From: Curtobacterium sp. UNCCL20 | Lineage (GTDB): Bacteria; Actinomycetota; Actinomycetes; Actinomycetales; Microbacteriaceae | NCBI RefSeq assembly: GCF_900101675.1 | Contig: NZ_FNKG01000004.1 | Span: forward strand, 310,001 to 374,000 | DNA: 64,000 nt | Reading direction: 5' to 3' | In this document: one piece after another, positions 16,086 through 57,850 of the stretch | Layout: every line of letters starts with the position of its first letter | Position numbering within the stretch: position 1 is the first letter of the stretch | The notes under the pieces: model-generated | What the model saw: the letters and a program-made list of their open reading frames with translations, nothing else | Told to the model about the DNA's origin: nothing | The model's database searches: none | Program-made: the position numbers and the translations under genes

Positions 16086-16180
16086 GCCGTTCCGCGCGTA
16101 GGGCGCCGTTCCGCGCGTAGGGCGCCGTTCCGCGCGTAGGGCGCCGTTCCGCGCGTAGGGGGCCGTTTCGCGCGTAGGGA
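16086..16180. repeat. Five 19-bp tandem repeats just after the GH15 gene
   Basis: Unit GCCGTTCCGCGCGTAGGGC occurs at 16086, 16105, 16124, 16143 and 16162; the first three are identical and the last two carry one and two changes. A partial sixth unit follows. The array starts 7 bp after the stop codon and ends 73 bp before a perfect palindrome. No coding potential was credited. Confidence 0.9.
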
Positions 16181-16252
16181 GCGGTTCTTTCCTGCCTCCT
16201 CAGCGCGGAACAGCATCCCAGGACACGTGCGATGGGTCGGAACGCACGCCGA

Positions 16253-21740: not shown

Positions 21741-21878
21741 GTCGACCGACAGTCGCGAGACACGGGCCGGATCGTCAGCCGCGAGTCGCGAGCCGCGCGG
21801 GCCGGACCGTCAGCCGCGAGTCGCGAGCCGCGCGGGCCGGATCGTCAGCCGCGAGTCGCGAGCCGCGCGAGCAGGATC
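21741..21878. repeat. Three and a half 35-bp tandem repeats duplicating the 3' end of the M20 peptidase gene
   Basis: Full units at 21774-21808, 21809-21843 and 21844-21878 begin GTCAGCCGCGAGTCGCGAGC; a 33-bp degenerate copy lies at 21741-21773. The third unit contains the stop codon (21845-21847) and last nine codons of the peptidase gene; the other units are extra copies beyond the stop, still encoding ARLATRG-stop in the minus direction. Confidence 0.9.
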
Positions 21879-23293
21879 GTCTCGGAGGCGATGGCGCGGT
21901 GCAGAACGCCGAGGTGCTGCGACTCGTTCGGGCTGTGCGCACGGGTGTCCGGGTCCTCGACACCCGTCACCAAGATCTGCGCCTCCGGGAACTCGGCGGC
22001 GAGGTCCGACACGAACGGGATCGAGCCGCCGATGCCCTGCTCGACGGCCTGGTTGCCCCAGCCCTCGGCCATGGCCGTCCGCGCCTCCTGCACGGCCCAG
22101 CCGGCGGTGTCGACCAGGAACCCGTCGCCGGCGTCCGGCTCGGAGATCTCGAGCTTCGCACCGAACGGCACGTGGGCGCGCAGGTGCCGCTCGACCGCGG
22201 CGTACGCCTCCGTCGCGGGCTGTCCGGGCGCGACGCGGACCGAGACCCGCGCGGAGACCGTCGGCAGGAGCGTGTTCGACGCGTTCGCGACGCTCGGCAC
22301 GTTCATGCCCGTCACGGTGATCGACGGCTGGAACCACATCCGGGACAGCACCGGACCGCGGCCGACCGGTCGCACGCCCTCGAGCAGGGCCGCGTCCTTC
22401 GCGAGCTCGTCGTCGGAGCGGTCCGGGACGTCCGCCTCGTACGAGGTCAGCCCCTCCACCGCGACCGAGCCGTCGTCGTCGTGCAGCGACGAGAGCAGCT
22501 TCACCATCGGGATCATCGCGTCGGGGGCCGCTCCCCCGAACATGCCGCTGTGCGAGGCGTGCTCGAGCGTGGTCAGCGTCAGCTTGAAGGTGACGTTGCC
22601 GCGGAGGGACACCGTGATCGAGGGGACCTCGGTCGACCAGTTGTCACTGTCCGCCACCACGATGACGTCCGCCGCCAGGTGCTCCTTCTGCTCGCGCAGG
22701 AAGGTGCGGAACGACCGGGAGCCGAACTCCTCCTCGCCCTCGACGAAGAGCACGACACCGAGGTCGAGGTCGTCGCCGAACTGGGCGTGGACCGCGCGCA
22801 GCGAGGCGATGTGGGTCATCACGCCGGCCTTGTCGTCGGAGGCACCGCGCCCGTAGAGCCGGTCGCCACGGAGCGTCGGCTCGAACGGCGGCGTCTCCCA
22901 GAGCGCGTCGTCGCCCTGCGGCTGCACGTCGTGGTGGGCGTAGAGCATGACGGTCGGCTTGCCGTTCCGCGCGGGCCGGACGGCGAGCACCGCCGGCTGC
23001 CCGAGCTCGCCGTCCGAGCCGTCGACGACGTCGGCCGTCGCGCCCGACACGGCCGACCGCACGATGCGCACGTCGTCCGCTCCGAACACGCCCGTCGACC
23101 GTGCGAGGTCCGCGACGGCCTCGGCGCTGGCCCGCACGTTCGCGGGGTCGAAGGCCGACCAGGACACCGACGGCAGCCGCACCAGCGCGGACAGATCGGC
23201 GATCGTGGTGGGCAGCGCGCCCTGCACGTGTTCGCGCAGGGCGTCGAGGAGCGCGGGGTCGGTCGCGGGGCTGTGCTGTTCGGTGTCGGTCAT
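21845..23293 (-). CDS. M20-family metallopeptidase (dipeptidase-like)
   Basis: Cytoplasmic zinc dipeptidase/deacylase of the M20A type. 482 residues. Metal and catalytic motifs in order: LYAHHDVQPQG, GRGASDDKAG, the catalytic and metal Glu pair in FVEGEEEFGSRSF, ADSDNWS, and a dimerisation-domain HASHSGMFGG. The ATG at 23293 was chosen over an upstream GTG because a TAGATT -10-like hexamer lies 7 bp before it, suggesting a leaderless message. Divergent from the DUF3043 gene. Its last codons lie in a 35-bp tandem repeat. Natural substrate unknown. Confidence 0.9.
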   Translation of the reverse strand: MTDTEQHSPATDPALLDALREHVQGALPTTIADLSALVRLPSVSWSAFDPANVRASAEAVADLARSTGVFGADDVRIVRSAVSGATADVVDGSDGELGQPAVLAVRPARNGKPTVMLYAHHDVQPQGDDALWETPPFEPTLRGDRLYGRGASDDKAGVMTHIASLRAVHAQFGDDLDLGVVLFVEGEEEFGSRSFRTFLREQKEHLAADVIVVADSDNWSTEVPSITVSLRGNVTFKLTLTTLEHASHSGMFGGAAPDAMIPMVKLLSSLHDDDGSVAVEGLTSYEADVPDRSDDELAKDAALLEGVRPVGRGPVLSRMWFQPSITVTGMNVPSVANASNTLLPTVSARVSVRVAPGQPATEAYAAVERHLRAHVPFGAKLEISEPDAGDGFLVDTAGWAVQEARTAMAEGWGNQAVEQGIGGSIPFVSDLAAEFPEAQILVTGVEDPDTRAHSPNESQHLGVLHRAIASETILLARLATRG

Positions 23294-23929: not shown

Positions 23930-23963
23930 CGAAGCGCCGTCCGGTTCGCCGGGCGGCGCTTCG
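23930..23963 (+). terminator. UUCG-tetraloop terminator after the DUF3043 gene
   Basis: CGAAGCGCCG pairs with CGGCGCTTCG, then a T/G wobble, CCGG/CCGG and a TTCG loop, followed by TCGTT. UUCG closed by a GC-rich stem is a very stable fold. Confidence 0.8.
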
Positions 23964-23993: not shown

Positions 23994-24470
23994 CGCCGAG
24001 ATCGCAGAAAGTGCCGCTCCGCGGCGTCCGAAGCGGCACAAAATGCGATCTCGGCGAGGCACGCGCGGCGCGTCCTGCGGTCTCGCGTCCGGTGGCGACC
24101 CGCCGACGGCCTGGAGGCGCGGCTCGGACCCGCCACGCGCCTCCAGGCCGTCAGGTCGCACCCCGCGCCGGCGGCGCCCCGCCGCACCGCCCACCGGACC
24201 CCCGAGATCGCAGAAAGTGCCGCTGCGAGGCGCGCGAAGCGGCACAAAGTGCGATCTCGGCGACTCGCGGGCGGCGCGTCCTGCGGTCTCGCGTCCGGTG
24301 CCGACCCGCCGACGGCCTGGAGGCGCGGCTCGGACCCGCCACGCGCCTCCAGGCCGTCAGGTGGCACCCCGCGCCGGGGGCGCCCCGCCGCCCCGCCCAC
24401 CGGACCCCCGAGATCGCAGAAAGTGCCGCTTCGCGGCGTCCGAAGCGGCACAAAATGCGATCTCGGCGAC
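23994..24470. repeat. 206-bp tandem array of two alternating palindromes (A-B-A-B-A)
   Basis: The 628-bp gap between the DUF3043 and pyrD genes holds no credible gene. Palindrome A (57 bp) lies at 23997-24053, 24203-24259 and 24409-24465: outer arms CGAGATCGCA/TGCGATCTCG, a symmetric GAAA/AAAA (AAAG in copy 2) internal loop, inner arms GTGCCGCT/AGCGGCAC and a 13-base loop. Palindrome B (48 bp) lies at 24105-24152 and 24311-24358: 17-bp perfect arms GACGGCCTGGAGGCGCG and complement, 14-base loop. Both recur with a period of exactly 206 bp. Spacer sequence is also conserved between units, so whole units were duplicated. Confidence 0.95.
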
Positions 24471-24550
24471 CCGCGCGCTCCCGGCGCCGCGCGCGGGCCC
24501 GGCGGCCACGGCGCCGCGCACGGCCACGCGGCCCGCGCGGCGCCCCGGCG

Positions 24551-25627
24551 TCAGCGCGCGGCGCGCCGCAACCGCCGGCGCCGCAGCCGGTTGATCCGCG
24601 TCGCCCAGCTCGGCCCCTCGTAGAGGAACGCCGTGTAGCCCTGCACGAGCGTTGCCCCGGCCTCGATCCGGTCCTGCACGTCCTGCTCGGTGGTGACGCC
24701 GCCGACCGCGATGACGCAGAAGTCCTCGGGGACGGCGGCCCGGACCCGGCGCAGCACCTCGAGGGAGCGCGCTGCCACGGGTGCTCCGGAGAGCCCCCCG
24801 GCACCCATCGCCGCGACCTCGGCGGCGGGCGTGGTGAGCCCCTCCCGCGAGATGGTGGTGTTGTTCGCGATGACGCCGTCGAGCCCGAGGTCCACCGCGA
24901 GTCCGGCGATGGCGTCGATCTGCTCGTCGTCGAGGTCCGGCGCGATCTTCACGAGCACCGGGACCTTGCCGGCCGCGTCTCGGACGGCGGAGAGCAGCGG
25001 GCGGAGCTGGTCGAGCTCCTGCAGCCCGCGGAGGCCCGGCGTGTTCGGCGAGCTGACGTTCACGGCGAGGTAGTCCGCGAACGGGGCGAGGCGCCGCGTG
25101 GACTCGAGGTAGTCCTCGACCGCGTCGGCGACGTCGACGACCCGACTCTTGCCGATGTTGACGCCGATGACCGGGCGGCCGGGGTGTCGGCGGGCCCGTT
25201 CGAGCCGGCGTGCGGCGGCGGCGGCTCCGTGGTTGTTGAAGCCCATCCGGTTGATGAGCGCGCGGTCCGGGATGAGCCGGAAGAGCCGCGGTCGTTCGTT
25301 GCCGGGCTGCGCCTTCGCGGTGATGGTGCCGACCTCGACGTGTCCGAACCCGAGGACGCCGAGTCCGGCGATGCCCTTCGCGTCCTTGTCGAAGCCCGCT
25401 GCCAGGCCGAAGCGCGACGGGAAGTGGATGCCCATGGTGGTGACGCCATCGAGGGCGGACGGGCGGGAGTACCGCTCGACGATGCCGCTGACGATCGGCA
25501 CGTGCGGCAGCACCTTGATGACGGCGAAGGCCAGGTGGTGGGCGCGCTCGGGGTCCATGTTCGCGAACACGGAGCGGAAGACGACGGCGTACCCGCCGCG
25601 GACGATGCGTTCCGCGATGCCGCTCAC
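24551..25627 (-). CDS. pyrD: Dihydroorotate dehydrogenase (quinone), class 2
   Basis: Fourth step of pyrimidine synthesis: oxidises dihydroorotate to orotate with a quinone acceptor at the membrane. 358 residues. N-terminal amphipathic segment typical of class 2 ([19 protein letters not shown]), FMN-barrel motifs [19 protein letters not shown], the catalytic-Ser segment [26 protein letters not shown] and [13 protein letters not shown]. The C-terminus ends in a run of arginines ([10 protein letters not shown]). GTG at 25627 overlaps the nrdR stop (GTGA). The gene ends 81 bp from the 206-bp palindrome array, which may terminate it. Confidence 0.95.
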
Positions 25628-26235
25628 GCGCCGGCCCCGGCGGGCGCAGCAGCACCCGCGGCACCAGCAGCGCCCGAACCCCCGGCGGCACCCGCGGCAC
25701 CAGCAGCGCCCGAACCTCCGGCAGCACCCGCGGCACCCGCGGCACCGGAACTCCCGGCGGCACCCGCCGCTGCCGCGCCGCCCGACCCGTGGTGGTCGAT
25801 CCGCAGCTGCGTGATGGCGTCCTCGAAGTCGTCGAGCGAGTCGAACGCCTGGTAGACGCTGGCGAACCGCAGGTAGGCGACCTCGTCGAGTTCGCGGAGC
25901 GGCGCGAGGATCGCGAGCCCGATGTCGTTCGCGTCGATCTGGCTGGAGCCCGAGGCGCGCACGGTCTCCTCCACCCGCTGCGCGAGGACGGCGAGGTCCC
26001 CGTCGGTCACCGGGCGGCCCTGGCACGCCTTGCGCACGCCGGACACGATCTTGTCGCGGCTGAACGGCTCGGTGACGCCGTTGCGCTTCACCACGTTCAG
26101 CGACGCGGTCTCGGTGGTGGAGAAGCGGCGCCCGCAGTTCGGGCACTGGCGACGGCGACGGATGGAGGTTCCGTCGTCGCTGGTCCGTGAGTCGACGACG
26201 CGGGAGTCCGGATGGCGGCAGAAGGGGCAGAACAT
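25624..26235 (-). CDS. nrdR: Transcriptional repressor NrdR with a Gly/Ala repeat tail
   Basis: Repressor of ribonucleotide reductase genes. 203 residues against about 150-160 for the family. Zinc ribbon [17 protein letters not shown]...[12 protein letters not shown] (Cys3, Cys6, Cys31, Cys34), then the ATP-cone domain ([20 protein letters not shown] to about residue 140). After [13 protein letters not shown] comes an unusual tail of about 50 residues built from a 12-residue Gly/Ala/Ser unit. ATG at 26235 with a TAGCCT hexamer 10 bp upstream (26246-26251). Co-directional with hisD upstream (13-bp gap) and coupled to pyrD downstream. Confidence 0.93.
25652..25774. repeat. 36-bp in-frame tandem repeat encoding the NrdR tail
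   Basis: Units at 25652-25687, 25688-25723 and 25724-25759 plus a partial fourth; each encodes 12 residues of the type [12 protein letters not shown]. The period is a multiple of three, so copy-number change would keep the frame. Confidence 0.85.
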
Positions 26236-57043: not shown

Positions 57044-57513
57044 GGAACCTCCGGTTCGAGGAGCTGCTGCGGGGCGTGAACAGCCTAACCGCGACCGCCC
57101 ACATTCCCGGGCGCGTCGAGCGCGTTCCCGATGCGGTGGGCGCGCCGCGGGTCGGGCGCGGTCCGGCCGAGGATGCGCTCGCCGGCTGCCCGAACGGGCG
57201 CCTTCGGCCGGGTGTGCGCGCGGCCGAGGGTGCACGACACGCCGCGCGCCGATCGCCGAGCGGGCAGAAGGCGTCGCATCCCAGCGCCGAACGGGCCACA
57301 TCGTGCCCGTTCGCCCCACGCAGCCACTCCGACGCGCAGCAGCTCGACGGGCCGTTCGGCACCACGCGGCGCCAGTGGCACCGCCGACCCCGCAGTCGGT
57401 CGGTGCCGGTGCCCCGGCGGCATCGGGTCGCGCTGTCGGGTGACCAGGGACCGTCGGACCACGCGCGGCGGCCAGACGGTCCGGCTCAGCCGATCCGTCG
57501 GCTCGACCCCGGA

Positions 57514-57557
57514 CGGACTGGAGGCGCGTGGCGGCGCCGACCCATGCCTCCAGTCCG
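57514..57557. repeat. CTGGAGGC-family hairpin upstream of dnaE
   Basis: 12-bp perfect arms CGGACTGGAGGC (57514-57525) and GCCTCCAGTCCG (57546-57557), 20-base loop. Confidence 0.75.
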
Positions 57558-57608
57558 GAGGTACCAGGCCCGCGCACGGTGACGGACGAGAGCAGACGGC
57601 ACGCAGCC

Positions 57609-57850
57609 CGCCGAGCGGGCAGGACACGCCGCGCGTCGCCCGTCGAGCGGGCGGAAAACGCCGCGCCGCGGCCGCGAGCGTGACGGATGTTGCCCGCTCG
57701 GCGAAGCCGGCCACCGGCCTCGCCTCCGCGGGGCCGTCGAACGGCCGCCGCGTCGAGCGGGCAGGACACGCCGCGCGTCGCCCGTCGAGCGGGCGGAAAA
57801 CGCCGCGCCGCGGCGGCGAGCGTGACGGATGTTGCCCGCTCGGCGAAGCC
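57609..57850. repeat. Pair of 97-bp direct repeats (period 142 bp), each able to fold
   Basis: Copies at 57612-57708 and 57754-57850 differ at about one base. Each begins CGAGCGGGCAGGACACG, repeats CGAGCGGGC once inside, and ends with TGCCCGCTCGGCGAAGCC, so the start and end pair (13 bp in copy 1: 57609-57621 with 57691-57703). They lie between the rluD-like gene's 3' end and dnaE. Confidence 0.85.

Follow-up and report, generated by a model that had tools for sequence, protein, structure and literature searches.

A tandem palindrome array in Curtobacterium as a member of a dispersed, largely inherited repeat family with possible roles in binding protein on double-stranded DNA

Dispersed palindromes in bacterial genomes are usually explained by RAYT transposases or as transcription terminators. 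The BIME/REP elements of enterobacteria consist of dispersed inverted palindrome pairs that form mosaics, are amplified in tandem and occur preferentially at the 3' ends of genes. BIMEs bind gyrase, IHF or DNA polymerase I, and in E. coli they have been proposed to act on chromosome topology or on transcription run-on. In REP and REPIN-RAYT systems, the substrate is the single-stranded top strand of a hairpin. DNA uptake sequences occur in species dialects, often as inverted pairs at gene ends, while the attC sites of integrons carry R boxes ending in AAC or GTT. REP and REPIN-RAYT elements are characterised by a tetranucleotide tag, GTAG or CGTC, at one of their ends (PMC3733652), and REPs have co-evolved with their TnpA (PMC8266576).

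The window, i.e., the whole stretch of 64,000 nucleotides that was analysed, contains a 206-bp tandem array (23996–24478, plus strand, 2.3 copies) built of two kinds of palindrome, A and B. Two copies of the unit, 94% identical, are followed by the first 71 bp of a third. The A copies begin at 23996, 24202 and 24408, each 206 bp from the next; the repeat and palindrome coordinates thus bear out the A-B-A-B-A order and exact 206-bp period of the original prediction. Read on the minus strand, the first element (23995–24087; covariance model score 82.9 bits, E 1.2e-10) comprises a unit D at 24065–24084 and a 55-bp palindrome, U-U', at 23998–24052, and the second (24201–24293; 82.5 bits, E 1.4e-10) has D at 24271–24290 and U-U' at 24204–24258. 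The third, on the same strand, is a U-U' palindrome alone (24410–24464; 54.7 bits over 24407–24503), with a D score of 7/15 as against 12/15 in copies 1 and 2. Unit D, GAGACCGCAGGACGCGCCGC on the minus strand and 32 bp from A copies 1 and 2, is a further copy of the motif that had previously been overlooked. The B palindromes, to which no strand was assigned, are terminator-like and identical to each other (24105–24152 and 24311–24358), each 48 bp long, with 17-bp arms and a 14-nt loop. Folding was compared with shuffled sequence, giving z scores of -7.6, -6.2 and -7.3 for A and of -5.8 and -6.3 for B, and for each of the five palindromes none of 200 shuffles folded as well. Contiguous inner pairing spans 11 bases in A copy 3 and 8 in copies 1 and 2, which confirms the three additional pairs noticed before. 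The internal GAAA/AAAA loop is not strictly kept, as had been claimed, since copy 2 has GAAA opposite AAAG and the loop positions vary genus-wide.

Two convergent genes enclose the array. On the left, a gene for a DUF3043 protein (PF11241; 23347–23922, plus strand) is followed by a terminator-like hairpin (23930–23963, plus strand) that is separate from the array; on the right lies the dihydroorotate dehydrogenase gene pyrD (PF01180; 24551–25627, minus strand). The gene at 25624–26235, presumably NrdR-like, overlaps the called start of pyrD by a few bases with its end, and a 36/72-bp tandem repeat in its 3' part (25649–25785) encodes an Ala/Gly-rich tail. Other tandem repeats in the window include a 19-bp repeat at 16086–16187 (5.4 copies, 93% matches) and a 35-bp repeat at 21763–21881 (3.4 copies, 95% matches), the latter overlapping the 3' end of a gene called at 21845–23293.

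An A element is composed of two inverted 20-bp units 15 bp apart, which amounts to 55 bp in total and 35 bp from centre to centre. On the strand on which D comes first, minus in the window array, U follows D at 31 or 32 bp, and the inverted U' follows U at 35 bp. The 20-bp unit is itself bipartite: a gap of some 6 bp separates its 8-bp word, GAGNNNNC, from the YGCCGC that comes after it. In the consensus, the ends of an element read GAG...CTC, in most cases with C and G next to them. When total lengths of 44–70 bp were allowed, 144 of 209 elements from 248 Curtobacterium loci measured exactly 55 bp, and a shuffled control, drawn from a slightly larger locus set including 25 non-Curtobacterium loci, was flat, with 52 hits and 2 at 55 bp. 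The distance between U and U' (28–59 bp accepted) was 35 bp in 98 of 119 distinct pairs and 36 bp in 12, and the length of the 15-bp spacer is nearly fixed. A direct copy of the word lies 31 or 32 bp to one side in 114 of 156 Curtobacterium elements of 54–56 bp, and within 10–69 bp no other offset occurs more than 4 times. Two additional pairings were considered and rejected: 120 spacers had no excess self-complementarity that would extend the palindrome inwards, and in a hairpin proposed for the D linker (CGACACG..CGTGTCG) four of the seven pairs were Watson-Crick in under half of 60 sequences. D-type units standing alone, head to tail with a 31-bp period (GCGGTCGCGCGACTTGCCGC...), were seen at two loci, L034 (about 1700–1860) and L035 (about 1100–1250), which suggests that unit D can expand alone.

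The original prediction had proposed searching for both palindromes throughout the genome and in relatives, and had held that absence of A elsewhere would reduce the array to a local duplication of terminators. A covariance model for A was built from 60 elements; its base pairs reward pairing, and it therefore cannot itself serve as evidence for structure. In the source genome, among the best 150 of 14688 candidates scored, it gave at least 34 matches, corresponding to at least 27 elements at no fewer than 18 places once matches on both strands were merged. Within Curtobacterium, a bacterium of soil and leaf, 65 of 66 genomes have matches at E<=0.01; G059 is the one genome without any, and those in G068 are 2 weak ones. 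When a single mismatch was tolerated, the unit GAGATCGCANNNNGTGCCGC was present in 42 of the 66 genomes, as against 2 hits of the reversed-pattern control over all 66. The exact D-type 20-mer was found in 93 stretches, and the 80 listed comprise 56 from Curtobacterium, 5 from a Microbacteriaceae bacterium and 19 single stretches from other organisms; these last are probably chance occurrences in GC-rich DNA. The B palindrome, too, recurs at 39 or more further places in the source genome (best 40 of 640 candidates scored). Because A is present elsewhere, the array is more than a local duplication of terminators. A local event of that kind, devoid of wider meaning, would agree with the tandem 206-bp unit and its high identity, yet the dispersal of both palindromes makes it very improbable. 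Clustering near the terminus was set aside as a feature of the family: among the matches listed, those in G018 and G030 seem, by eye, to be scattered along the chromosome, and many in G075 lie near its middle.

Outside the genus, weak model hits were obtained in 25 genomes from other genera of the family and, within an order-wide sample of 297, in 8 genomes from other families. At 46 family loci examined, 37 of 48 GAG/CTC palindromes are 54–56 bp long, compared with 7 hits and none at 54–56 bp in the shuffled control. Their words include GAGACTGC, GAGTTGCC, GAGAGCGC and GAGGGGTC, and some arms are perfect 20/20 palindromes that extend into the spacer. Of 7 loci from other families, 6 have palindromes of 54–56 bp, 5 with GAG ends, and L327 is without one. 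A direct word copy is generally absent outside Curtobacterium, with no offset met three times at the family loci; a direct copy at 31 bp in G341 means that D is not confined to the genus. As the model favours the 55-bp geometry, this wider spread is suggestive and not proven. Plasmid and phage records contained no match to the family, and no description of these repeats was found in the literature, as judged from titles and the starts of abstracts, with most subscription papers outside reach.

Between elements the words differ (GAGGTCGC, GAGATCGC, GAGCGGGC, GAGTGGTC, GAGGTTCC, TTGGTCGC and others), while within an element they are matched. Several words can coexist in one genome, as illustrated by the 24 kb array and a second locus of the window at 57 kb. 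This locus has three plus-strand elements with the word GAGCGGGC: one at 57223–57315 (66.4 bits), in which D has GAGGGTGC, a D-U-U' element at 57610–57702 (63.7 bits) and its tandem copy at 57752–57844 (65.5 bits). A B-like palindrome is visible by eye at about 57515–57556, so that A and B stand together within 57223–57844 too. Word agreement was assessed over 1.32 Mb of loci, mostly from Curtobacterium, with elements picked by their geometry, their inner halves and the constant part of D, whether or not the words agreed. In sets of 121, 73 and 50 non-redundant elements, in which the reversed-sequence control gave 36, 4 and 0 hits, respectively, agreement between D and U, U and U', and D and U' each exceeded all 1000 shuffles. 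Agreement at the gap positions is weak, with 1, 67 and 83 shuffles per 1000 as high for U-U' and 4, 40 and 25 for D-U.

In 13 of 19 candidate orthologous elements, from 11 genome pairs of related species (5 others had an alignment gap inside the element and 1 had low identity), changes affected 8 of 208 word positions (4%), 11 of 156 in YGCCGC and 36 of 156 in the gap, where the choice of candidates as exact 55-bp palindromes in one partner favours arm agreement in that partner. The spacer had changed at 47 of 195 positions (24%) and the 40-bp flanks at 185 of 947 (20%). Word and spacer thus differ in divergence with p 1e-9, whereas the spacer changes much as the flanks do (p 0.17). Conservation of half-sites at near-constant spacing, with drift in the DNA between them, is typical of sites at which a protein binds double-stranded DNA.

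The gap between the DUF3043 gene and pyrD, followed through 30 species, holds D-bearing elements in 17 of them and, by a looser scan, a 54–56 bp palindrome in 18, with differing words. G033 has a similar A/B alternation of about 200 bp, and G001, G008 and G017 have, by eye, only other palindromes. In the DUF3043-pyrD gap of G071 and G072 (L108 and L109), B-like hairpins and a long palindrome of unrelated sequence are seen by eye to alternate three times, which makes a similar array of independent origin. Copy number, which the original prediction had suggested comparing between strains, varies among relatives by a single tandem element. One locus holds two elements in G074 and three in G075, and beside the DUF3043 gene those of the GAGATCGC type number two in G062 and three in G076. 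Orthologous occupancy, together with these one-element differences, indicates that positions are often inherited and that arrays grow and shrink locally.

The palindromes could instead form hairpins at transcript 3' ends, as a structured RNA or a bidirectional terminator, and their stable predicted folds and location between 3' ends agree with such a role. Selection on an RNA hairpin should leave more G-U than A-C among the mismatched arm positions, as read on the transcribed strand. In 151 non-redundant elements, the G-T to A-C ratio in the A arms was 49:49 for the word, 62:72 for the inner part and 71:67 for the gap. The terminator-like hairpin beside the DUF3043 gene, scored alike without favouring G-U, gave 16 G-T to 2 A-C over 19 distinct hairpins (p 0.0013, a value that overstates independence, as a single inherited pair accounts for many of the 16). 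A therefore lacks the tolerance of G-U that marks an intrinsic terminator hairpin. U-U' mismatch types are strand-symmetric; between D and U' the ratios were 47:58 in the word and 58:128 in the inner part, the asymmetry of the latter being put down to bases of D that hardly vary. In 10 of 15 pairs both sides had changed, a result equalled by 0 of 500 shuffles, in an alignment partly selected for such changes; two sites for the same protein would also yield them. Moreover, D matches U about as well as U' does, yet D and U are direct copies that cannot pair, so that pairing between them does not explain their matching; an alternative-pairing switch, in which D or U pairs with U', could still do so.

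Rho-independent terminators, like A and B, are GC-rich palindromes downstream of stop codons, and the comparison fits B. A differs from them in having no G-U signature and in sitting beyond a hairpin that the DUF3043 gene already possesses. In the window, no Rfam model matched at its gathering score. The absence of G-U bias in A, unlike in the adjacent terminator, speaks against a structured RNA and for a protein on double-stranded DNA; the RNA or terminator role is accordingly held to be decidedly unlikely, and the earlier suggestion of a structured RNA locus is not supported. The related proposal of selection on structure holds for two short parts of the unit and, seemingly, for their spacing, but not evidently for a hairpin.

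B behaves like a genus-specific terminator hairpin and constitutes a separate family. Each of the 20 B sites examined has a gene 3' end no more than about 140 bp away, and 14 are between convergent genes, 6 between tandem genes and 0 between divergent genes; further B matches, six within genes and another at the edge of a locus, are probably partial. The D-bearing loci, at 27 distinct places, are distributed as 17 convergent, 9 tandem, 0 divergent and 1 inside a gene call that is probably over-long. A looser definition by U-U' gave 63 locus occurrences, with 43 convergent, 9 tandem, 1 divergent, 4 inside genes and 6 at a locus edge. For the window itself, the numbers of convergent, tandem and divergent gaps are 4, 28 and 4, and 3, 12 and 1 for gaps of at least 150 bp. 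Gene calls for these counts came from a purpose-built codon model. When 176 flanking proteins were clustered, the 25 largest clusters revealed no gene that recurs beside elements at different loci; they looked like orthologous single loci, and a recurrent trans-acting neighbour gene was rejected on this basis. A gene judged DUF559-like by eye, between two elements of G065 (L090), was likewise dismissed, as the given frame had no Pfam match. PF04480 is absent from G000 and G065 and occurs once each in three other genomes.

Among described systems, the closest are the enterobacterial BIME/REP (PU) elements. The A family is, like BIMEs, a regular mosaic of inverted intergenic palindromic units in many copies, dispersed, amplified in tandem and located preferentially at gene 3' ends. 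Unlike them, it is made of bipartite 20-bp units with a variable word and nearly fixed spacings of 35 bp and 31/32 bp; the GTAG/CGTC end tag is absent from A, whose consensus ends are GAG...CTC, and a RAYT gene was not found. The BIME/REP-like mosaic of the original prediction thus stands as regards a dispersed, intergenic palindrome in mosaic with a second one, but not as regards the REP tag or its transposase. DNA uptake sequences share dialect words and inverted pairs between convergent genes with the A family, which differs in having tens and not thousands of copies and in its 20-bp bipartite units. An integron attC site was rejected by eye on the conserved GAG and CTC ends.

REPINs with their RAYT (TnpA-REP) resemble the A family in that a variable spacer is enclosed by two short repeats in inverted orientation and that the sequence has lineage-specific variants. 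The main rival to a protein-binding role is built on this likeness: the elements would be old, non-autonomous mobile palindromes, copied as single-stranded hairpins by a transposase that is unrecognised or lost, and their age would make positions look conserved. It agrees with the number of copies, with the sharply delimited 55-bp unit and its GAG/CTC ends, with words that differ between lineages and with perfect arms in other genera, and also with the co-evolution of REPs and their TnpA (PMC8266576). However, the RAYT-type Y1 transposase PF01797 was detected in none of the 66 genus genomes and none of 20 others, with positive controls found in 5 of 14 genomes, and RAYT-driven mobility was therefore rejected. 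The U-U' mismatches have no strand bias of the kind that recognition of one strand might give, spacer length is nearly fixed, spacers at different loci share no sequence by eye, and orthologous loci often stay occupied, as in 17 (D-bearing) or 18 (looser scan) of the 30 DUF3043-pyrD gaps. REPIN-like mobility hence retains a real, though minor, share of probability.

A second mobile origin would make the elements MITE-like, i.e., inverted ends left behind by a DNA transposon, now extinct, whose terminal repeats were 20 bp long. The near-fixed length and the terminal GAG/CTC across genera could be read in this manner. Conservation of the word positions in orthologues and an extra D site at fixed spacing are not what such remnants would have, and neither interior conservation nor target duplication is apparent by eye; this origin is regarded as improbable.

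The reading tentatively preferred, with confidence a little short of even, takes the array to be one member, amplified in tandem, of a dispersed and largely inherited family of double-stranded DNA binding platforms. Judged from the sequence patterns, a sequence-specific dimeric or oligomeric DNA-binding protein would occupy two or three sites per element. By analogy with E. coli BIMEs, and less firmly, such a protein placed between convergent genes might influence chromosome topology or transcription run-on, while B may supply transcription termination beside the A platforms. The presence of several words in one genome means that one protein must tolerate them or that several proteins exist. 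Perfect 20/20 arms reaching into the spacer in other genera are not needed by a pure two-site model and count against it.

A broader version of the binding-platform reading, considered unlikely on present evidence, envisages a DNA-binding system throughout the Micrococcales, with paired 20-bp sites at 35-bp spacing and a switchable word of 4–5 bp whose copies within an element change together. The binding proteins, of which one genome might have several, would co-evolve with these dialects and organise the chromosome between convergent genes.

The two customary accounts of dispersed bacterial palindromes, RAYT transposases and terminators, were both tested here, and neither fits the A family well. 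Its conservation pattern points to binding on double-stranded DNA, with a fixed geometry and changeable words. The U-U' duplex offers a concrete bait for isolating the putative binding protein, and in Curtobacterium the switching of words is open to comparison among 66 species of one genus.
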